Part shown: piece by piece, positions 5,969 to 51,440 of the stretch | How positions within the stretch are numbered: the first letter of the stretch is position 1 | Layout: every line of letters starts with the position of its first letter | Origin: Bacillota bacterium | GTDB taxonomy: Bacteria; Bacillota; Sulfobacillia; Sulfobacillales; Sulfobacillaceae | Assembly (NCBI GenBank): GCA_023511625.1 | Contig: JAIMBD010000016.1 | Coordinates: 1-51,549, forward strand | Direction of reading: 5' to 3' | Length of the DNA stretch: 51,549 nt | Translations under genes and position numbers: made by a program | The notes under the pieces: model-generated | What the model was told of the DNA's origin: nothing | What the model saw: the letters and a program-made list of their open reading frames with translations, nothing else | Databases searched by the model: none

Positions 5969-6622
5969 TCAACTGGTGGTGGTCTTGTAATACCACGTGG
6001 TCTGGCCGGGGCTGCCCTGTTGGGCCAGGCGTTCCCGCAAGCCCTCCACGGTCACGGGAGCCGGGATGATGGCCGGGTCTCCCGGTCGCCAGTCCGCCGG
6101 GGTGGCCAACCCCTCACGGGCGTTTTTCTGCAGCCCATCGACGACCCGCAAGATTTCGTCGATGTTCCGCCCGAGACTCAAGGGGTAGTAGATCATGGCC
6201 CGCACGATGCCTTTGTCGTCGATAAAGAACACGGTGCGGACGGTCACGGTAGAGGTGGCTCCGGGGTGGATCATCCCGTAGAGCCGAGCGACCTTCTGGT
6301 CTAGGTCGGCGATGACGGGGAAGGGGATGCGAATGCCGAAGTTCTGTTCGATGCTGGCTTGCCAGGCCAAGTGCGAGTACACCGAGTCGACCGAGAGGCC
6401 GATCAACTGCACGTTACGCTCCTCAAACTGAGGTGCGCGCTTGGCAAAAGCGATGAACTCCGAGGTTCATACGGGCGTGAAGTCGGCCGGGTGGGAAAAC
6501 AGGACCACCCACTTCTTGCCCCGATAGTCGCTCAGGCGGATCGGGCCGAAGGTGGAGGTGGCCTCAAAGTCCGGAGCCTCTTCGTTGAGGCCCGGCATGC
6601 GCACAGGCGCCTGTTCTTCCAT
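5969..6622 (-). CDS. 1-Cys-type peroxiredoxin with in-frame TGA (putative selenoprotein)
   Basis: Read from the ATG at 6622, which has AAAGGAGGG six bases upstream, the frame gives a 217-residue Prx6-type peroxiredoxin if the TGA at 6467-6469 is read through. The sequence around it is [15 protein letters not shown], so the TGA occupies exactly the peroxidatic cysteine position (residue 52) of the family motif PxxxTPVCTxE. Downstream the frame continues intact with [35 protein letters not shown] and the Prx6-type C-terminal arm ([10 protein letters not shown]). No other cysteine is present in the protein, so residue 52 is the only possible peroxidatic residue. Selenocysteine-containing peroxiredoxins are known in clostridia. 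Role: reduction of hydroperoxides. Alternatives are a nonsense mutation or a sequence error. If UGA is not decoded, only a truncated C-terminal piece would remain. No selenocysteine machinery lies in this window. Confidence 0.8.
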
Positions 6623-6710
6623 GGTTACCCTCCTTTAGGCGGAGAATGGGTGAGCGGGGCCTTGGCCGTCGCTCCCAGTTTTGGGAGTGGCAGCGAGAGG
6701 CCTCGTGCGC

Positions 6711-6740
6711 ATCTTAGCACAGCCAACAGGCACGATACAA
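6711..6740 (-). promoter_or_regulatory. Promoter of the peroxiredoxin gene
   Basis: On the minus strand TTGTAT (6740-6735) and TAAGAT (6716-6711) are separated by 18 bases, and TGC precedes the -10, giving an extended -10. The predicted start lies near 6704, leaving a leader of about 80 bases that holds a CTCCCA/TGGGAG hairpin (6672-6687) before the ribosome binding site. Confidence 0.55.
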
Positions 6741-6741
6741 G

Positions 6742-6766
6742 TTACCCTATTACAACTATAGAATAA
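6742..6766. promoter_or_regulatory. AT-rich inverted repeat upstream of peroxiredoxin promoter
   Basis: TTAnnCTAT and ATAGnnTAA half-sites flank a seven-base centre, just upstream of the predicted -35. The block is strikingly AT-rich against its surroundings. It could be an operator for a redox regulator or an UP element; no specific regulator can be assigned. Confidence 0.35.
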
Positions 6767-6809
6767 ATAGGAGATTAGTTCCGCCGCCGCCCGCGGCCCA
6801 GCGGGGGCG

Positions 6810-10643
<3,834 letters not shown>

Positions 10644-41068: not shown

Positions 41069-41812
41069 ATGCGTGCACTCCTGCAGTTGCGGCCCCTGAC
41101 CGGCGCCTTGCGTCTACCCATCCACCACCAGCACCTCTTACAGGCGGCCGCCTACCACCTCTTCTCCCCGGCCGTGGCCCGCTACCTTCACGACCGCGGC
41201 TTCGCTGTCAACCAGAAGACGTTTCGACTGTTTACCTTCTCGCGGCTCGAAGGTCCCTACCGCCTGGAGGCGCAGTCGGTCAGCTTTCGGGGTGCCCTGC
41301 GCTGGACCATTTCGTCTCCCCTGGATTTGGTGGTAAGTGATGTAGCCAACGTGTTGCTGCGCGAGGCCGAAGTCCGTTTGGGCTCGAACCGGCTCATGGT
41401 CGAGTCGATCACCGTCCAACGCCCTGTGGTTGAGGCAGAGCACCTCGTCGTCCGCACGCTGAGTCCCATCACCGTCCACCAGACCGTATGGCGGCCCGAT
41501 GGCCGGCCGTACCAGTTGCATTTACATCCGAAAGACCGGCACTTTCAAACGTTGGTGGCGGAAAACCTATGGCAGAAATACCAGGCTGTACATGGCTGGG
41601 CAATCCCCACCGAAAAACCGCTGACCATCGAGCCGGTGGGCACGGCGCGCGAACACATCCTGCTCTACAAAGGCGGCGTCATCAAGGGGTACACGGGGCG
41701 CTTTTACTTAACCGGTCCGCTTCCGCTTTTACAGCTGGCCATCGATGCGGGAGTGGGCTCCCGGAATGCCCAAGGCTTTGGGCTGGTCGAAATGGTGGGC
41801 GAGGGCGCCTAA
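41069..41812 (+). CDS. cas6: CRISPR endoribonuclease Cas6
   Basis: A 247-residue RAMP protein that cuts pre-crRNA within the repeat. The C-terminal glycine-rich loop GVGSRNAQGFGLVEM is diagnostic, preceded by a typical ferredoxin-like pattern (KGYTGRFYLTGPLPLLQLA). Histidines at LPIHHQHLL (19-22) and HLF (about 30) are candidates for the catalytic base. The ATG at 41069 follows GAAAGGGGGTGGG. First gene of the cas operon. Confidence 0.93.
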   Translation: MRALLQLRPLTGALRLPIHHQHLLQAAAYHLFSPAVARYLHDRGFAVNQKTFRLFTFSRLEGPYRLEAQSVSFRGALRWTISSPLDLVVSDVANVLLREAEVRLGSNRLMVESITVQRPVVEAEHLVVRTLSPITVHQTVWRPDGRPYQLHLHPKDRHFQTLVAENLWQKYQAVHGWAIPTEKPLTIEPVGTAREHILLYKGGVIKGYTGRFYLTGPLPLLQLAIDAGVGSRNAQGFGLVEMVGEGA

Positions 41813-41827: not shown

Positions 41828-43831
41828 GTGTTAACAGAGGCGCTGGCACGGTTGGGATCGCTGTTGTTAGACGAGAACGACAACCTGACCACGGCGATTC
41901 GCGATTTAAGTGACATCGAGAAAAACACCGGAAAGTTCTATGCAGCGGTGTGGCTGGTTGAGGTCTTGGAAAACGGCTCGGCCTTCAGCCGGCCTTACGA
42001 AGTTTGGGGCACGTGGCAGACCACCGGCACTGGCAAGCGGGCGCGGTCCGAGTTCGTTCCCCATGTCGAAAAGGCGGTAGCGGCCCCGACCTTTTGGCCG
42101 GTCGGCGGAGACCCCAGAAAGCCCCAGGGGCGTTATGCCGTGCCGGCCTATTACTTCTACGCCAAAGACTACCAAGCCTGTCTGGAACCGCAAGATCCCA
42201 GCGCATTGCGCCATTACTTGGAACTACGCCTCCAAAGGACCTTCGGATGCCAAGACCAGGCGGGCGTGCTGGCCGAGCGGGTCTCCGCGGCATTGTGGCC
42301 GCAGCTTAGGGAAATAGAGCCGAAAGACTCCCTGATCCTGATCTGCCAGTTGGGGTCAGATAGCGTTTATCGCGTGCTTCCCGAAGAGCAACTCGGCTCG
42401 CCGGGAGAAGTAGATTTGGGGCCGAGCCTGGCCATGCCGGGGATGATGTTGGCGGCGGATCTCCGACACCTCGTCTCCCGGCTTTGGTGGGCGAGACAAG
42501 AAGAAGGCGCCGAATACGGTCGTCAGGATCACGGAGTCTGCACCTTTTGTGGCGCGCAGGGCGAGGTGGTATCCAGTTATTCCAAAGCGTGGCCGTGGTT
42601 TAACCCCACGTGGTCGGCACCCAGACCGAGCGGATGGAAAAAAACCGATCTCGTCGAAGAAATCGCCTGTTGCCCGCGCTGCTATGCGAGCTTAACGTAT
42701 GGCGGCAAGTTGTTTGGTCACTTGTCTCGCGACGTGGATCCGGTCGTCATCCGCGCCATTTTTGAAGGACAAGGAAGCAGTCGAGGCCCTCGCATTCAAG
42801 GAGCGGCATGGCTTCTCCCGTGGCACCAGACCGTCGACAGCCGACGGTTTCTCCGCGGCGTGCGGCGGATGCGTCACCGACAACAGGACAGTCCCCGCGA
42901 CATCCACCTCCAAGATCTGTTGGGGTTTGACAACCTCATTCCGGAAGAGCTGAACGCGGACGCCTATCGGCTCACTGCCGTCTACTACACCCAAGTGAAC
43001 GCCGACATCCACCTCTATGCCTTGGTCGATGACATCGAACCGGGGACAGTGGCTACCCTCGTGAATACCCTGATTCCTCTGGCGGCCGAGACGCTGGCAG
43101 AAGAGCCGTTGCCGGTCGGACGCTCCTTCCCCGCCTGGCTGGCCAAGGCTTATGGGGGCGGCTATATTTGGCAGAGCCTGGAGAAAGTCCTGCGACATCG
43201 GCCCCTGTCCACCCGACGGCTCGTTCACCGCGCCGCGTCCCGCATGCAGCATTGGGTCAAACGCTTGCCCGACCATGTGGCGTTCGCGGAACTGTCTTCA
43301 GAGGTTCGCTTCCTATACGTGTTCCGCGCATTCCTAACGCTCTATCATCGGCATTTCGGCATCGCAGAGGAGGATTCGGTACCCATGCGCAGTTTGACCG
43401 AGTTACAGCAAATGATTCAGAATCCCGAGACCATCTGGGACTTGCAGGAGCCGGCCGATGTCGGGTTCGTCGCCGGCAATGTCGTCCGCGAGTTTTCCCG
43501 CCGTTTTTGGTCCGACCAGGAAAAAGATTACCTCAAGACCCGGGTCATGACCTTCGGTAGCCGCCTCGACCCCGATACGCTATGGCGCCGGGCTTTGATT
43601 CCCATGATGGACTTGGCGGAGCGGCTCGATATCGATCTTGGTCGCCCGTTTATGCTCCGCTTGGGGCAGGTTTTGCGGTTGATGGAAACCTACCGGGAAA
43701 CCTGGAGCCGCGACCCTGATGCGTTTCTAAGCGGGTTCTGGTCCGGGTACTGCCTCGCCGACCGGACCTTTTCCGGCACCCCAAGCGCTGATCGGAACGC
43801 CGCACCCGCGATCTCGACCCCTGAGGGGTAA
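41828..43831 (+). CDS. cas8b: Cas8b/Csh1-type Cascade large subunit
   Basis: A 667-residue large subunit that recognises PAM and supports R-loop formation in subtype I-B Cascade. Assignment rests on position between cas6 and cas7, size, and the zinc-ribbon pair CTFC (C238, C241) and CPRC (C282, C285), as in TM1802/Csh1 proteins. The C-terminal half is helical. The GTG at 41828 has AAGGAGG about 10 bases upstream. Sequence similarity of this subunit is always low, so the subfamily label is less certain than the role. Confidence 0.85.
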   Translation: MLTEALARLGSLLLDENDNLTTAIRDLSDIEKNTGKFYAAVWLVEVLENGSAFSRPYEVWGTWQTTGTGKRARSEFVPHVEKAVAAPTFWPVGGDPRKPQGRYAVPAYYFYAKDYQACLEPQDPSALRHYLELRLQRTFGCQDQAGVLAERVSAALWPQLREIEPKDSLILICQLGSDSVYRVLPEEQLGSPGEVDLGPSLAMPGMMLAADLRHLVSRLWWARQEEGAEYGRQDHGVCTFCGAQGEVVSSYSKAWPWFNPTWSAPRPSGWKKTDLVEEIACCPRCYASLTYGGKLFGHLSRDVDPVVIRAIFEGQGSSRGPRIQGAAWLLPWHQTVDSRRFLRGVRRMRHRQQDSPRDIHLQDLLGFDNLIPEELNADAYRLTAVYYTQVNADIHLYALVDDIEPGTVATLVNTLIPLAAETLAEEPLPVGRSFPAWLAKAYGGGYIWQSLEKVLRHRPLSTRRLVHRAASRMQHWVKRLPDHVAFAELSSEVRFLYVFRAFLTLYHRHFGIAEEDSVPMRSLTELQQMIQNPETIWDLQEPADVGFVAGNVVREFSRRFWSDQEKDYLKTRVMTFGSRLDPDTLWRRALIPMMDLAERLDIDLGRPFMLRLGQVLRLMETYRETWSRDPDAFLSGFWSGYCLADRTFSGTPSADRNAAPAISTPEG

Positions 43832-43917: not shown

Positions 43918-44889
43918 ATGATTCGCACTTCCGAAATCCTTTTCGTTAAATGCGTGAAGGACGGCATTCCCAACCGCGATCCGCTCGCCGACAGCGACGC
44001 TCGCCGTCTGTTTGGGGAAGACGATGGCCGGATATCGCTGTCCGATGTGAGCATCAAACGGGACGTGCGCGACTACGTCCTCGCTAAATACCCGGAAGGA
44101 GGTGAAGATCAGCGACATCACATCTACATCCAGGAACTTCGGCGCGACAAATTCCTCTTGGGTCGTAAAGAGCTGGCCCAATGGATCTTCGACCGCGCAG
44201 GCATTGCCAATGAATTGGGAGATTCGCTCGAACAGCGGCGTGCGGCGTTAGCTCGCCACGCGTATGATGTGCGCACATTCGGCGCCGTGTATTCGGTAGG
44301 CGATCAGAGTTTCCACCTCACCGGCCCGACACAGTTTGGCTGGGCGCACTCCCTACATGCGGTGGAAACCCGATACGTCCAAGGGACAGTCGTCATCCCC
44401 TCCGCAGAGTCCCAGGGGCGGAGCGCGGGATCGGGGTCTCGCGAAGGCAAACAGCAGGGAACCATCTGGTCGACCTACTATCTCCCCTTCGCCGTGTTCG
44501 CCATGCCGGGCATCGTCAATGCCACGATCGCCCAGCAAACTGGGATGGATGCATCTGACGTCGAGTTGTTGCTCGAGGCACTCTGGCGGGGAACGAAATT
44601 TCGACAGGCCCGCGGTCGCGGCTTCCAACAGCCGCTACTGTTGATTCACGTAGAGTATCAGGACCCTCTGTTTCGTTTGGGCTACCTGGAAGAAGGGATT
44701 CGGTTAGAGACGACCCAGCCCATCCCCACGGGTTTAGATCAGGTCCAGCTGGATGTACGAGCACTCTCCGATCGGTTGGCGGCCAATGCCGCCCATATCG
44801 CCCGGGTCCGGTGGTGGCAGGACCCCGAGTTAGAGGTTGTCGGCGAGCTGCCAGGTGTCGCAGGGGGACTCGAAGGGCCATCGGCATAG
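43918..44889 (+). CDS. cas7: Cas7/Csh2-type Cascade backbone subunit
   Basis: A 323-residue RAMP protein. It starts MIRTSEILFVKCVKDGIPNR and continues DP, LSDVSIKRDVRDYVL, as in Csh2 (SEILFxxxxKDxxPNxDP, SDVxLKRxIRDYL). ARHAYDVRTFGAVYS, GPTQFGWAHSLHAVE and ALWRGTKFRQARGRG follow the family order. It forms the crRNA-coating filament. RBS AAAGGAGC lies upstream; an 86-base gap separates it from cas8b. Confidence 0.93.
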   Translation: MIRTSEILFVKCVKDGIPNRDPLADSDARRLFGEDDGRISLSDVSIKRDVRDYVLAKYPEGGEDQRHHIYIQELRRDKFLLGRKELAQWIFDRAGIANELGDSLEQRRAALARHAYDVRTFGAVYSVGDQSFHLTGPTQFGWAHSLHAVETRYVQGTVVIPSAESQGRSAGSGSREGKQQGTIWSTYYLPFAVFAMPGIVNATIAQQTGMDASDVELLLEALWRGTKFRQARGRGFQQPLLLIHVEYQDPLFRLGYLEEGIRLETTQPIPTGLDQVQLDVRALSDRLAANAAHIARVRWWQDPELEVVGELPGVAGGLEGPSA

Positions 44890-44900
44890 AGGTGGGGACC

Positions 44901-45599
44901 ATGAAGCTGTTGTATTTCGAGGTAAAGAGTTCTGTGGCTCACTTTCGGCGTCCGGATACCACCAGTACCCACGCCACATACCCTTTCATTACCCGTACGG
45001 CCATCCAGGGATTGTTAGCCGCGGTCATGGGATGGGAATCCTGGTCGGGATCCTTGTGGAGCGGTGTCGAACTGTTAAGTCCGCCGGTGACCAAAGTGCA
45101 GCAACTGTCGATGTTGGGGAAGGGCTTTCTGGACAAAGATGGCGACATCTTCAATCGTCCGACTACGGTCGAACTGCTGGTCAACCCCCATTATCGGATT
45201 TTTGTAGCTGGCGACCATCTCGACGCGCTGGCCGAAAGACTCGCGTCCAATCGCAGTGTGTACCATACGTATTTGGGATCTGCCTTCGCCCTCACGGTAC
45301 CGTTTGCGGTAGGGGTGGATGACGTCGAGCCCCTGCCGCCGACGACCTCAGACAGCTGGTCCGCCCGCACCGTACTTCCGGTTCACGCCGTCCAAGCCCT
45401 TGAGGCCACGGCTGGCGCCCAATTCGCCCGCGTAGGAGGTATCCCATATGAAATACTCCCCGGCCGGCGCTTTCGAGGCTCGGTGGCGGTACTTTACGAA
45501 AAGCGAGGGAGGCCCATCGAGTTTTATCCGAGTACCGGGCCCTTTGCCCCTGAAGTCCGTTTCGTTCCCTGGCAGGGTCAGGTGGTGGCACTATGGTAG
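44901..45599 (+). CDS. cas5: Cas5 (I-B type)
   Basis: A 232-residue RAMP protein that binds the 5' handle of crRNA. N terminus KLLYFEVKSSVAHFRRPDT then TRTAIQGLLAAVMGW is the Cas5 pattern (first strand plus TPTaaxGlLgai), with a GIPYEILPGRRF segment near the end. The ATG at 44901 has GAGGTGGGG upstream. It overlaps cas3 by 7 bases. Confidence 0.9.
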   Translation: MKLLYFEVKSSVAHFRRPDTTSTHATYPFITRTAIQGLLAAVMGWESWSGSLWSGVELLSPPVTKVQQLSMLGKGFLDKDGDIFNRPTTVELLVNPHYRIFVAGDHLDALAERLASNRSVYHTYLGSAFALTVPFAVGVDDVEPLPPTTSDSWSARTVLPVHAVQALEATAGAQFARVGGIPYEILPGRRFRGSVAVLYEKRGRPIEFYPSTGPFAPEVRFVPWQGQVVALW

Positions 45600-47983
45600 T
45601 TCCCTTGGACCAATGTTGGGCCCGGCCTCCACGTGGTGACCGCGAACTGCTGTTGGTAGACCATCTGGAACAGGTCGCGGTGATGGCGTCGCGCGGCGCC
45701 ACCGGGCAAGAGGCTCAGGCATTGTATGCGGCTGGCCTTTTGCACGACATTGGCAAAGCGCGAACCAGTTGGCAAGAGTACATCCGTCGGAATACAGGGC
45801 GATCCGTTAATCACGCGTTTTTAGGAGCCGCCCTGTTTTTCTGGTGTTGGTCCCGTCCGCGCGTCGCCCGTCCGGAACAGTGGGCGACAATCCTTCAGCT
45901 GACCCGGGATATCGCCAATCATCATGGAAGCTTGGACGATCTCCGCGAAGAACCGCCGTGGCTCAATGGATGGCAAAGCGCTGCCTTTGGGGAGGTGGAT
46001 TGGCCCGCCGTAGCTACATTGCTCCGCCAACGATGCCCGTACCTCCCCCCCATCCCGACCGACCCCCAAACGCTTCAAGCGGAGTTCAGAAAATTGCCAG
46101 GCCTGTGGCAACGATGGCTTGAAGACTGTACCGACTATGACCTACCGCTGGACGAAGCCGTCGCGCGCAGCATTCGCGTTCACACCGCCTGTTTAATTCA
46201 GGCCGACCGCTTTGACGCGGCAGCGATGGCACCTGATCCAGGAATTACGGCAGCCCGTACTGGGGAGATCTTGGCGAACATCCGACAATACGTAGAACAG
46301 CAGCTGGACGACGAAGCCCAGAGGAGTCCCATGACGTGGTACCGGCAGCGCATGGCACAGGAGGTTTTATCTCGGCTTTCTGGCCTCGAGGCGCGGTCCA
46401 GTCGCCTATGGACCTTGGAATTGCCCACTGGGGCAGGCAAGACCTTATTGGCTCTTCAAGTTGCCACCACCTTACTGCAAAAGCAGGGTGGCGGGCGTAT
46501 GGTGTACGTCGCTCCGTATTTGTCGGTTTTGGCTCAAGCTGCAGATGTGGTAACCCGCGCAACCGGAATCGAGGTCTTAGAGCATCATCACATGGCCTCG
46601 TTAACCCCACAAACCGACGAGATCCTGCGAGACGAAGACGTGCTGATTCAGGAGTCGTGGCAAGCCCCCATTGTCGCCACTACATTCAACCAGTTTTTCC
46701 GCGCGCTCTTCCCCGTCCGCGCCCACGAAGCCATGCGACTCCAAGCCCTCCAGCACGCCGTAGTCATCATTGACGAACCGCAGGTAATCAATCCCTCGGC
46801 GTGGGCGGTATTCCTAAAGGGCCTCGAGCAGTCCCTTGAAATTCTCAACAGTCACGCGATTCTAACCACCGCCACGCTCCCTCCCTTACGGCCTGCCCGA
46901 TTGCGACATCCTCCGATTACCCTGGGTCCAGCTACTGCGACACCACCGCTCTCGCGGTACCAATTACACGTCGAGACCCCCGGTTGGACCACGGAAGACG
47001 TCGGGAACCAGGCGCTGGAAGAATTGCAAACGGGCACCTCCTGCGCGGTGATGTTGAATACCATCCGAGATGCCGCCGAAGTCTACCAATTCTTGCTCCA
47101 GCGAGCAGAAGGCTGCAACCTGTATTTGGTAACGGGAGCCATGAGCGGGATTCACAAGCGCTTTCGCCTTTCGGAGATTTTTCACGCGGTAAACGCCCCG
47201 ACGCATCCCCCGAAGAAAGTCCTGGTGGTGAGCACCCAGGTCCTCGAGGCTGGCGTCGATCTGAGTTTTGATGCCATTTTGAGAGCCAGGTCATGGATAC
47301 CGTCAATTGTCCAATCGGCGGGACGCGTCAATCGGCATGGAGAACGTCCTGGTCCCGGTCGTCTTCGCGTTTTTACCTATATCCGGCCGGATGGCCACGA
47401 CTCACGCCCATTCGTGTACCGAGACAGCGTTGCCCGCGAGGAGACAGACCGTTTACTCGATTCCTGCCCCGTCGTCGACGAACACGACATCCCCCGCGTG
47501 TTGGAGACATTTTACCGGGCTTACTTCCAACGACACAGCTTCGAAGGCACTCTCCAAAAATTCGTCCAAGCCGCCAACGGTCAGTGGAGCGCCGTCGGTG
47601 GGCTAGAGCCTTTTGAGGCGGACGTCCCCGCCATTCCCGTCTTCATAGGCCTCTTGGGGCCGACCCTCGGCGACCAAACCTGGGCGGATGCACCGACGCT
47701 TCAAGGTTTGCGGTACTTCCAATGTCAAACGCCTGACACAGTCTTTGAGCGCTATACGGATCCTAAATTTCTCAGTCGGTTAGACTTCGCAACTCGGAAG
47801 TACTTTATGAGCCTGCTTTTGCGATTCTGTGTCAACATGCCTATTCGCCGCATCCTGCAACAAGTCGAACGGTTTGAAAACCGAGTAGTGGTCCGGTGGG
47901 TGGATCTTGCCGCCTACCGACCAGACACCGGGTTGGCCGAAATCTTTATCAGCCACGAGGACGGAGGTGCAGTATTCCTGTGA
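45593..47983 (+). CDS. cas3: CRISPR helicase/nuclease Cas3 (HD-helicase)
   Basis: A 796-residue effector that unwinds and degrades target DNA. HD domain: H24 in LVDHLEQV and H51-D52 in LLHDIGKA. Helicase: Walker A ELPTGAGKTLLAL (about residues 277-289), DExx box VIIDEPQVI (about 393), TTATLP, the VSTQVLEAGVDLSFD motif V and QSAGRVNRHG motif VI (about 573-582). HD and helicase domains are both complete, so it should be active. Its TGA overlaps the cas4 GTG. Confidence 0.95.
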   Translation: MVVPLDQCWARPPRGDRELLLVDHLEQVAVMASRGATGQEAQALYAAGLLHDIGKARTSWQEYIRRNTGRSVNHAFLGAALFFWCWSRPRVARPEQWATILQLTRDIANHHGSLDDLREEPPWLNGWQSAAFGEVDWPAVATLLRQRCPYLPPIPTDPQTLQAEFRKLPGLWQRWLEDCTDYDLPLDEAVARSIRVHTACLIQADRFDAAAMAPDPGITAARTGEILANIRQYVEQQLDDEAQRSPMTWYRQRMAQEVLSRLSGLEARSSRLWTLELPTGAGKTLLALQVATTLLQKQGGGRMVYVAPYLSVLAQAADVVTRATGIEVLEHHHMASLTPQTDEILRDEDVLIQESWQAPIVATTFNQFFRALFPVRAHEAMRLQALQHAVVIIDEPQVINPSAWAVFLKGLEQSLEILNSHAILTTATLPPLRPARLRHPPITLGPATATPPLSRYQLHVETPGWTTEDVGNQALEELQTGTSCAVMLNTIRDAAEVYQFLLQRAEGCNLYLVTGAMSGIHKRFRLSEIFHAVNAPTHPPKKVLVVSTQVLEAGVDLSFDAILRARSWIPSIVQSAGRVNRHGERPGPGRLRVFTYIRPDGHDSRPFVYRDSVAREETDRLLDSCPVVDEHDIPRVLETFYRAYFQRHSFEGTLQKFVQAANGQWSAVGGLEPFEADVPAIPVFIGLLGPTLGDQTWADAPTLQGLRYFQCQTPDTVFERYTDPKFLSRLDFATRKYFMSLLLRFCVNMPIRRILQQVERFENRVVVRWVDLAAYRPDTGLAEIFISHEDGGAVFL

Positions 47984-48513
47984 ACGCATCCCCGAGCAGT
48001 CCTGATGCCGCTACGAGTGAACTGTCCATCGGCGGCACCCTGATTTGGTACAGCTCCATCTGCCTACGACAGTTATGGCTCATGGCGCATCAAATCAACC
48101 CAGATGAAGATGACCCGAATTTGGAGTACGGGCGTTTTCTCCATGAAACGGCGTACCTCCGCGAAAAGCGAGGATTTGAGGTGAACGGCAACCGGTTCGA
48201 TGTCGTGTCCTTTCGTAACGGCACATTGGTCGTGGCCGAAATCAAGAAAAGTTCCCGAGCGCTGGAAAGCACCCGCCTTCAACTCGGGCACTATTTGATG
48301 GTGTTAGAGGAACAGGGAATTAACGCTATCGGCGAGCTTCGGTTTCCCGAAGAACGTCGCAAACAAGAGGTAAGACTGACGGACGATCTTCGGCGCGCCG
48401 TACTACGCCAACGCCAGATCGTGCGCGAGGTTTCCGGATTACCTACTCCCCCTCCCCCGAAACGCCTCCGGTGGTGTTCGAAATGCGCCTACGCAGAGAT
48501 GTGCTGGGCCTAA
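47980..48513 (+). CDS. cas4: CRISPR-associated exonuclease Cas4
   Basis: A 177-residue PD-(D/E)XK protein that trims prespacers during adaptation. Cysteines C28 (SSICLRQLW), C166, C169 and C175 (WCSKCAYAEMCW) would hold the 4Fe-4S cluster; nuclease residues are in GRFLHE, RFDVVSF and VVAEIKKSS, followed by QLGHYLMVLEE. The GTG at 47980 overlaps the cas3 stop as GTGA and has GGAGGTG upstream. Confidence 0.93.
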   Translation: MNASPSSPDAATSELSIGGTLIWYSSICLRQLWLMAHQINPDEDDPNLEYGRFLHETAYLREKRGFEVNGNRFDVVSFRNGTLVVAEIKKSSRALESTRLQLGHYLMVLEEQGINAIGELRFPEERRKQEVRLTDDLRRAVLRQRQIVREVSGLPTPPPPKRLRWCSKCAYAEMCWA

Positions 48514-48573: not shown

Positions 48574-49587
48574 ATGGAACGAGTGATTCATGTATTTTCT
48601 ACAGGCAAATTTGAACGCCGTAGCAACACGCTTTACTTTGAAACTGAAGCCGGGGAACCTCGGTATTTGCCGGTGGAAAATGTCCGGGAAATCTGGATTC
48701 ATGGGGAGGTAACTTTTAACAAGCGTTTCATCGAGTTTCTAGCCGATCGGGAAATTCTCCTTAACATATTCAACCGTTATGGGTATTTTGTCGGGACGTT
48801 CTATCCTCGAGAACACTACAATTCGGGTTACATGATTGTCAAGCAAGCGGAGCACTATCTAGACACAAAAAAACGGCTGCAAATCGCGCGCGCCTTTGTG
48901 TCAGGAGCGGCCACTAACATGCTCAGAGTTTTAAAATATTATGCAGGGCGTGGCAAAGACGTAACCAAGTCCATCGCGTCTATCGAGGCGTTAGTAGATC
49001 ACGTTAAGAGCATTGACGTCGAAAAGGGTCAGACTTCGATCAGCGAACTAATGGGATTGGAAGGTAACATTCGGGAGCAATATTACCGAGCTTTCGACGC
49101 CATCATTCAACAACCGGCTTTTTCTTACCTTAGACGGACTCGACGCCCACCCAGTAATGCGTTAAACGCATTAATAAGTTTTTTGAACAGCATCGTATAT
49201 ACCACCGTGCTGTCCGAAATTTACAAGACGCATCTCGATCCTCGCATTGGATACCTTCACACCACGAACTTCCGCCGGTTCACGCTCAACTTGGATGTTG
49301 CCGAGATCTTTAAACCCATTTTGGCCGATCGCACCATCTTTCGCGTCCTGGGACGAAAAATGATCACAGCCAAAGATTTCGAGGTAAACCACGGAGGGGT
49401 TTGGTTATCGGAATCCGCCCGAAAGCAGCTCGTCGCCGATTTTGATGCCAAACTCAACACCACCGTCATGCATCGGCCCCTCAAGCGCGCAGTCTCCTAC
49501 AGGCGGCTCATTCGTCTGGAGCTTTACAAGCTCGAGAAACACCTCATGGGAGAACAAGAATATACCCCATTTGAAGCGATGTGGTAA
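48574..49587 (+). CDS. cas1: CRISPR integrase Cas1
   Basis: A 337-residue integrase of the I-B type. Metal ligands are E163 (LMGLEGNIREQYY), H229 (RIGYLHTTN) and E244 (LDVAEIFKP). The N-terminal beta domain has HGEVTFNKRFIEFLADREI and the FVGTFYPRE segment. An AAAGGAGG precedes the ATG with about 12 bases. Base composition is clearly lower in GC than the genes before it (many AT-ending codons), from about here to the array. Confidence 0.97.
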   Translation: MERVIHVFSTGKFERRSNTLYFETEAGEPRYLPVENVREIWIHGEVTFNKRFIEFLADREILLNIFNRYGYFVGTFYPREHYNSGYMIVKQAEHYLDTKKRLQIARAFVSGAATNMLRVLKYYAGRGKDVTKSIASIEALVDHVKSIDVEKGQTSISELMGLEGNIREQYYRAFDAIIQQPAFSYLRRTRRPPSNALNALISFLNSIVYTTVLSEIYKTHLDPRIGYLHTTNFRRFTLNLDVAEIFKPILADRTIFRVLGRKMITAKDFEVNHGGVWLSESARKQLVADFDAKLNTTVMHRPLKRAVSYRRLIRLELYKLEKHLMGEQEYTPFEAMW

Positions 49588-49589
49588 AC

Positions 49590-49853
49590 ATGTTTGTCAT
49601 TTTGGTGTATGACGCACAGGCTATTCGTGATCCGAAAGTGCTAAGAACTTGTCGAAAATATCTAGACTGGATACAAAATTCCGTTTTCGAGGGAGAGTTA
49701 ACCGAGGTCAAGCTTAAGAAGCTGCGCACGGAACTGTCTAAAATAATTGACCCTAAACGGGACTATATTGTCTGTTACGCTGTCGAAAGTGCCGGTTCGG
49801 TTACCCGAAGCACGTTAGGAACGCCCAAGACCATGGAAGGAAATATCTTCTGA
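49590..49853 (+). CDS. cas2: CRISPR-associated protein Cas2
   Basis: An 87-residue ferredoxin-fold partner of Cas1. It starts MFVILVYDAQ, with VLRTCRKYLDWIQNSVFEGEL and KRDYIVCYAVES as in Cas2 of type I-B. A GTG at 49581, overlapping the cas1 end, would add three residues; the ATG at 49590 gives the usual start. The conserved YD aspartate is present. Confidence 0.95.
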   Translation: MFVILVYDAQAIRDPKVLRTCRKYLDWIQNSVFEGELTEVKLKKLRTELSKIIDPKRDYIVCYAVESAGSVTRSTLGTPKTMEGNIF

Positions 49854-50032
49854 GAACTGCCGTCGACCCCCGGTCGCACCGAAACCCACGCCGTTCGACA
49901 ACATCAAATGCTCCAACAGCACTACGTCGAAGCCGCACTGGTCAATGGGAAACGGCGATGCTAGAATATGACTAGGCCAATCCTTACACAATCACGACTG
50001 CGGAGAACACCCGAATTCGTGCGCCGTCAACG
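49854..50032 (+). promoter_or_regulatory. CRISPR leader
   Basis: This 179-base stretch between cas2 and the first repeat is on the side implied by repeat orientation (crRNA handle ATAGAAAC at the repeat's 3' end). TGGTCA (49939-49944) and TAGAAT (49962-49967), 17 bases apart and with TGC before the -10, form a plausible promoter, with transcription starting near 49974. The first 110 bases are GC-rich and stay open in the cas2 frame up to a TAG. Confidence 0.7.
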
Positions 50033-51440
50033 GTTTTAGCCTCCCTATGAGGGATAGAAACCGGATGCTCCGCGTTCCACAATTGGGAGCGCCAATGTTT
50101 TAGCCTCCCTATGAGGGATAGAAACGATTGTGGACCTGGTGTGCGCCGGCATGGACGTGACGTTTTAGCCTCCCTATGAGGGATAGAAACTCGAGACGCT
50201 CCTGCGCCTGGGCGTGGCCCGAGCCGTTTTAGCCTCCCTATGAGGGATAGAAACCCCTCCAAGACGCGAGCGATCACCGTCTCACTTCGCGTTTTAGCCT
50301 CCCTATGAGGGATAGAAACAAATGCCAAGCGGCCAAGTGCAGCGGCAGTCCTTCCGTTTTAGCCTCCCTATGAGGGATAGAAACGAGCTGGAGGAGAACA
50401 TCCGGCGCAAGGACCTCACGTTTTAGCCTCCCTATGAGGGATAGAAACAATGGGCGCAAGGGTCATACTCATACCACATCACCCGTTTTAGCCTCCCTAT
50501 GAGGGATAGAAACCCGGGATAGGGATCGGTTCGGCGCCTGGTTTCCGGCGGTTTTTAGCCTCCCTATGAGGGATAGAAACTACGCTCCACGAAAAGGGCG
50601 GAAAAGACCACACGGTGTTTTAGCCTCCCTATGAGGGATAGAAACCTATCCGGCTTCCAGATCGGTGTGGATCCGCCGCTCGTTTTAGCCTCCCTATGAG
50701 GGATAGAAACCTCAACCTCGGGACCAACACGATTACCGGCGTCACCTCAGTTTTAGCCTCCCTATGAGGGATAGAAACATAAATGCGTCCATTCTCCTCT
50801 TCCTTCACCAAGAGGTTTTAGCCTCCCTATGAGGGATAGAAACGCGGTAGACCTCGCGATAGACGGCCAGCGCTTCGTCGTTTTAGCCTCCCTATGAGGG
50901 ATAGAAACTCAGCTTACTCCTCCTCTTCTTCAGCAGGGAGATGGGGGTTTTAGCCTCCCTATGAGGGATAGAAACCACCGTAGGAGCCATATATGCTTTG
51001 TAGGTTCCTTTGCGTTTTAGCCTCCCTATGAGGGATAGAAACCTGTCTGGCTCGGCAATGGCGGGTTTTGACAATGTGGTTTTAGCCTCCCTATGAGGGA
51101 TAGAAACGGCCACCTTCTCAATCCGTTCAATAAATGCCTCATGGTTTTAGCCTCCCTATGAGGGATAGAAACCCAAAAGCGGTAGGGGAAGTGTGGACGT
51201 GTGGGTGCCAGAGTTTTAGCCTCCCTATGAGGGATAGAAACGAGCGCCATGCCGAGAAGTGGTTCGAGCCGGGCCAGGGTTTTAGCCTCCCTATGAGGGA
51301 TAGAAACCCCGCCAGAGGCGGCGCCGCTCCTCGGCGAGCCACGGTTTTAGCCTCCCTATGAGGGATAGAAACATCGAATTCATCAGGAAGAGGGACGGGA
51401 TGCCTATCGGTGTTTTAGCCTCCCTATGAGGGATAGAAAC
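50033..51440 (+). CRISPR. CRISPR array, 22 repeats and 21 spacers
   Basis: The 29-base repeat begins GTTTTAGCC and ends GGGATAGAAAC, with a TCCCT-ATG-AGGGA hairpin in the middle where Cas6 would bind. Repeats start at 50033, 50097, 50162, 50226, 50291, 50356, 50420, 50485, 50552, 50617, 50682, 50750, 50815, 50880, 50947, 51014, 51079, 51144, 51213, 51279, 51344 and 51412. Spacers are 35-40 bases, mostly 36. All repeats are identical except the ninth, which has an extra T (or T for the first G). No degenerate terminal repeat is seen. The last eight bases match the subtype I-B 5' handle pattern, so the array is transcribed rightwards from the cas side. Confidence 0.99.

Follow-up and report, generated by a model that had tools for sequence, protein, structure and literature searches.

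Introduction

In type I CRISPR-Cas systems the array is generally transcribed from the cas side, the transcript is processed by Cas6, and the target is bound by the Cas8b complex and cut by Cas3. The locus described here resembles the type I-B systems in gene order (Cas6-Cas8b-Cas7-Cas5-Cas3-Cas4-Cas1-Cas2), in the position of the array downstream of cas2 and in the length of the spacers (35-40 nt). No difference of substance from them was seen; Cas7 and Cas5 score below the NCBIfam I-B cut-offs, though the PADLOC I-B models fit them best.

One of the spacers, spacer 6, has to be compared with ParB proteins. 'Nuclease' is an older name of the ParB domain. A 2025 survey (PMC12704722) describes the domain as an NTP-binding switch with the ParB-CTPase fold; it reports that phages often fuse this fold to N6_N4 methyltransferases and that the fusions are enriched in prophages, perhaps with an anti-defence role. 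Spacer 6 encodes the conserved ParB_N stretch of such fusions (PF02195 + PF01555), but a spacer of 35 nt cannot separate them from stand-alone viral ParB-like proteins, of which L027, L006 and L072 are examples. The chromosomal ParB/Noc proteins (Spo0J family) have the same L-x-E-N-x-x-R-x-D-L motif at the same place of the same domain. They differ in detail: the ParB of the host reads ALVENLQREDLN, the residue before the conserved R was Q in all 12 chromosomal-type motifs read with a loose pattern (12 of 31 loci) whereas spacer 6 encodes R, and the residue after the conserved R is mostly E whereas spacer 6 encodes K. Literature searches on CRISPR spacers with ParB or methyltransferase, on Sulfobacillus CRISPR, on type I-B protospacers and on ParB-methylase or ParB domain fusions showed no report of this array among the papers listed.

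The cas operon and the CRISPR array

The window, i.e. the whole stretch of DNA analysed (51,549 nt), carries the cas genes in the order cas6-cas8b-cas7-cas5-cas3-cas4-cas1-cas2, all on the + strand, with the array directly downstream. The product of cas6 (41069-41812) matched TIGR01877 with 107.3 bits (cut-off 58.65) and PADLOC Cas6b with an E-value of 1.3e-68. The next gene (41828-43831) codes for Cas8b, the type I-B large subunit, which had no NCBIfam match and was recognized by PADLOC Cas8b over residues 1-646 of 667 (E 5.5e-154). A Csh2-like Cas7 is encoded at 43918-44889 (TIGR02590, 138.4 bits, below the cut-off of 171.55; Cas7b, E 1.3e-50), and Cas5 at 44811-45599 (TIGR02592, 68.9 bits, below the cut-off of 97; Cas5b, E 1.4e-23), where the first coordinate is that of a mechanically defined open reading frame and the true start is probably near 44898. 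The cas3 gene (45593-47983) specifies an HD nuclease plus helicase matching TIGR01587 and TIGR01596 above cut-off and Cas3b with an E-value of 1.1e-212. It is followed by cas4 (47896-48513, start codon uncertain; TIGR00372, 71 bits, cut-off 65), by a type I-B cas1 (48574-49587; TIGR03641, 439.9 bits, cut-off 304.1) and by cas2 (49581-49853, again a mechanical start, with the true one probably at 49590; TIGR01573, 42 bits, cut-off 24.5). Five effector proteins were scanned with PADLOC, and for each of them the best model was of the I-B type (Cas6b, Cas8b, Cas7b, Cas5b and Cas3b). Since Cas1 also scored above the NCBIfam type I-B cut-off, the system was assigned to type I-B.

The array (50033-51440, + strand) consists of 22 repeats, 21 of them of 29 nt and one of 30 nt, and 21 spacers of 35-40 nt. 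The segment between cas2 and the first repeat (49854-50032, + strand) is, judged by its position, the probable leader. The repeat unit is GTTTTAGCCTCCCTATGAGGGATAGAAAC, and 21 of the 22 copies are identical; the exception, repeat 9 (50551-50580), has an additional T (GTTTTTAGCC). Spacer 6, 35 nt long, occupies 50385-50419 on the + strand, with repeat 6 (50356-50384) directly 5' and repeat 7 (50420-50448) directly 3' of it. Mapping of the array thus gave exactly the coordinates under which the preliminary description had listed this spacer between repeats 6 and 7.

The last repeat is followed by at most 109 bases to the contig end (51441-51549), which contain two 23-nt partial repeats. On visual inspection they also show a GC-rich hairpin with T residues behind it, which may be a terminator or the end of an element. 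In G001, the only other genome of the same genus in the comparison, two contigs (C134 and C252) bear long arrays whose repeat is similar; the blastn matches listed there had 66-75% identity.

Coding capacity of spacer 6

When read in frame +1, spacer 6 consists of 11 full codons, which specify ELEENIRRKDL, followed by the dinucleotide AC. The third base of the twelfth codon is supplied by repeat 7, and because ACN codes for Thr whatever the third base, the twelfth residue is Thr. The resemblance of this peptide to ParB was evaluated with reference motifs that were chosen independently of the spacer. They came from 31 loci, namely 30 of class-level relatives (Pfam PF02195) and a single host locus. 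Each locus contributed one motif, excised with a pattern requiring EN[LIVA]QR.DL; the Q found in all 31 motifs is therefore there by construction. Each of the 21 spacers was given the best score that any 11-amino-acid segment in its six frames reached against the 31 motifs. Spacer 6 scored 30.3 and the next best spacer 6.5. In a random control, none of 40,000 draws of 36 nt from positions 1-49,900 of the window (repeats allowed) reached 30.3, the highest value being 20.9. The resemblance of spacer 6 to the ParB motif is thus far above chance, and the earlier claim that in one frame it matches the ExENxxRxDL motif of ParB was borne out by both the peptide and the score.

Besides frame +1, four frames of spacer 6 are free of stop codons. 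Two of these were scanned against viral contigs. The pattern derived from one of the two frames had no match in IMG/VR. The other one matched a single viral contig, L053, as the antisense strand of another ELEENIRRKDL gene, which differs from spacer 6 at 4 of 35 bases.

ParB-like genes on viral contigs

IMG/VR was searched with a codon-degenerate pattern of the encoded peptide, which allowed synonymous codons, a few near codons and, for Ile, any NTN. Matches were found in 34 viral contigs, and all 34 were in frame inside open reading frames of at least 126 amino acids. The peptides were ELEENLRRKDLT (15 contigs), ELEENIRRKDLT (12), ELEENVRRKDLT (4), ELEENLRRKDFT (2) and ELEENFRRKDFT (1). The columns that are invariant in alignment A1 do not constitute independent evidence, because the pattern selected them. 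With the reversed codon pattern the same viral search yielded no contig. A shorter pattern, from which the Thr codon was dropped and in which Ile was fixed, also found 34 contigs, all encoding ELEENIRRKDL, 12 of which were common to the first search. The version of the pattern requiring both Ile and Thr matched 2 contigs among the GTDB 220 representatives as against 12 viral contigs.

After five duplicates had been dropped, 31 distinct proteins remained, 29 viral and two bacterial (L038 and L039). Pfam ParB_N was matched by 28 of them and was absent in three, including L005 and L018; an N6_N4_Mtase (DNA methylase) domain, the fusion partner known from phages, was present in 18. The proposal of the preliminary description that the protospacer came from a parB-like gene of a mobile element gains support from the in-frame position of every viral match and from the prevalence of ParB_N. 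The ParB domain of L038, a 402-amino-acid frame with ParB_N that was the second match among the GTDB representatives, was also compared with named phages; it found 66 records, all below 60% identity, and several of the best 15 bore annotations of a ParB-like partition protein or nuclease.

At the DNA level the 12 related genes (of the 34) that encode ELEENIRRKDLT had 4-11 mismatches to spacer 6 in the first 33 bases. Much of this agreement exists because the protein is conserved and the codons are GC-rich. A search with a plain DNA seed, the first 23 bases of spacer 6 (one seed), retrieved one viral contig, L077, with the match in frame in a ParB_N gene (31.4 bits, cut-off 26.3) that is identical to the spacer at 32 of 35 bases and reads ELEENIRRSDFT. 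The ParB-methylase fusion gene of L073 likewise agrees at 32 of 35 positions, with mismatches at 6, 34 and 35; its ParB_N score (26.2) lies slightly below the Pfam cut-off of 26.3. These two, both on viral contigs, are the closest DNA matches to spacer 6 that were found. Neither is the source itself, because the motif of L073 is followed by Glu instead of Thr and the L077 peptide differs, as given above. ParB_N was detected at E <= 0.001 in all six near genes, three scoring above the cut-off of 26.3 bits and three below it (26.2, 24.1 and 21.1). Four of five other proteins scanned on the L073 contig matched phage families (Sak4-like annealing protein, exonuclease, HNH endonuclease and DNA polymerase), and two of three scanned on L074 matched DNA polymerase and primase.

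Spacer 6 is very probably a normal type I-B spacer that was taken from the ParB N-terminal stretch of a ParB-like gene on a mobile element, most probably a phage.

Searches for the protospacer

Neither an identical protospacer nor one with a single mismatch was found in IMG/VR, the GTDB representatives, the named phages, the plasmids or 60 related genomes, the best agreement being the 32 of 35 bases mentioned above. Because there was no identical protospacer, no PAM can be read for spacer 6. Deriving a PAM from the related genes was tried and rejected: the three preceding bases occurred in 13 forms over the 34 genes and are merely the previous, variable codon.

Spacer 6 was compared by blastn with phages and plasmids, as had been proposed at the outset. 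Four of the best 20 of 48 plasmid records match inside ParB-family genes, those of one Euzebya, one Kitasatospora and two Nocardiopsis plasmids, with 85.3-89.7% identity over the aligned part; two of the four records, H21 and H25, were the best among the matches listed (E 0.08, tied with one match to a hypothetical protein), and both are in the same frame as spacer 6. None of the best 20 of 57 records of named phages is annotated as ParB at the match, three having no annotation and one being hypothetical. The best phage match, with 25 of 28 bases and a non-significant E-value of 0.1, fell in a primase/helicase gene.

The plasmid matches raise the question whether the source was a plasmid partition gene (parB) and not a phage gene, in which case spacer 6 would protect against a plasmid. 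The Euzebya and Kitasatospora genes agree with the spacer in the same frame at 29 and 27 of 35 bases, and the Kitasatospora gene adjoins a gene of the ParA family. However, the closest DNA matches seen, with 32 of 35 bases, sit on viral contigs, and these two plasmid genes encode QLAENIKRKDLT and SLVENIQREDLS where 12 viral contigs have ELEENIRRKDLT, the codon pattern having been run on viral contigs and bacterial genomes. A plasmid source is considered unlikely, and a phage is likely to have been the donor of the ParB-like gene.

The top phage match could also be taken to mean that the ParB reading is a one-frame coincidence and that the true protospacer is unrelated, such as the primase/helicase gene of a phage. 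It fits this explanation that nothing identical to spacer 6 was found and that only two of the four alternative stop-free frames were covered. Against it stand the motif score, which was not attained in the random control, the failure of the reversed pattern to find any match, and the plain DNA seed, which led again to ParB in the same frame. Coincidence is highly improbable. The preliminary description had named a best match in another gene or frame as the result that would speak against it; the two alternative frames scanned gave no match of their own and the seed search pointed to a ParB_N gene in the expected frame, and the best named-phage match, to the primase/helicase gene, was not significant.

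The whole array was also used as query. In blastn it found only two records among the named phages, both with an E-value of 5, and 15 among the plasmids, all with E-values of 1 or 5. An Aneurinibacillus plasmid record matched with six pieces spanning the array, which were taken as repeats. The other 20 spacers were likewise run against the 57 viral loci collected, and no spacer outscored the best among five shuffled copies of itself; this says little about them, because the loci had been chosen by spacer 6. A protein-level pattern of spacer 21 found no viral contig. In two genomes of the family, spacer 21 gave a short match (22 of 24 bases, E 0.05), which was discarded, as it amounts to fewer than 24 matching bases over the full 39-nt spacer.

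Spacer 6 and the genomes of the host and its relatives

In the host assembly (97% complete, 40 contigs) no sequence matched spacer 6 within three mismatches except the array itself, and the host array was the sole match when the host and 60 relatives were searched. Two ParB_N regions are present in the host, and one of them exceeds the Pfam cut-off; the motif of its ParB is LVENLQREDLN and that of the second protein IADNVLRRQLT. The second, weaker ParB_N-like region lies at G000:C37:129375-129566 and scored 24.6 bits (cut-off 26.3). That spacer 6 is directed at the host's own ParB or at a resident prophage, with a regulatory or autoimmune effect, is scarcely credible: the host does possess the two ParB_N regions, but its assembly, which might still lack a plasmid or prophage, has no match within three mismatches outside the array, and both host motifs differ from the peptide of spacer 6.

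Among 154 genomes of the class, the codon pattern matched the host array and one genome of the same family, G030. The same genome gave the one match over spacer 6, extended by one base on each side, when the whole array was compared by blastn with 34 genomes of the family (E 0.0025); the match is in a ParB-like frame. This frame is short (188 amino acids) and may be a remnant. The G030 locus (L040) and L039, a contig of a Bacillota MAG and the other of the two matches among the GTDB representatives, have a tested stretch of 1,000 bases in common. On L039, the short ParB-like frame (6294-6860) is located downstream of frames that by eye resemble enolase and MutS; it may be the remnant of a lost mobile element.

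Discussion

As judged from the sequence comparisons, the ParB gene family is well supported as the source of spacer 6, which identifies the target to the family and not to the element. The biology is that of an ordinary spacer in ordinary CRISPR immunity. Spacer 6 would have been acquired from the part of the gene that encodes ELEENIRRKDLT of the ParB N-terminal domain. Transcription would start from the cas side and proceed from left to right, yielding a crRNA with the sense sequence of the ParB-like gene. By analogy with other type I systems, this crRNA would be processed by Cas6 and would lead the Cas8b-Cas5-Cas7-Cas6 complex, together with Cas3, to DNA with the ParB-like gene, which they would destroy.

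A more far-reaching idea is that spacer 6 aims at the least changeable codons of a phage ParB-methylase gene, which would limit escape mainly to silent positions and allow one spacer to cover many phages, a breadth that might even have been selected; this is regarded as very doubtful.

A ParB-like target from a phage or similar mobile element is what a CRISPR memory is expected to hold. The example indicates that a spacer read as protein can name the gene family of its target when the databases searched hold no DNA protospacer. For this little-known lineage of Bacillota, spacer 6 offers a clue to what infects it, namely an element, phage or plasmid, that carries a ParB-like gene, possibly fused to a methylase.
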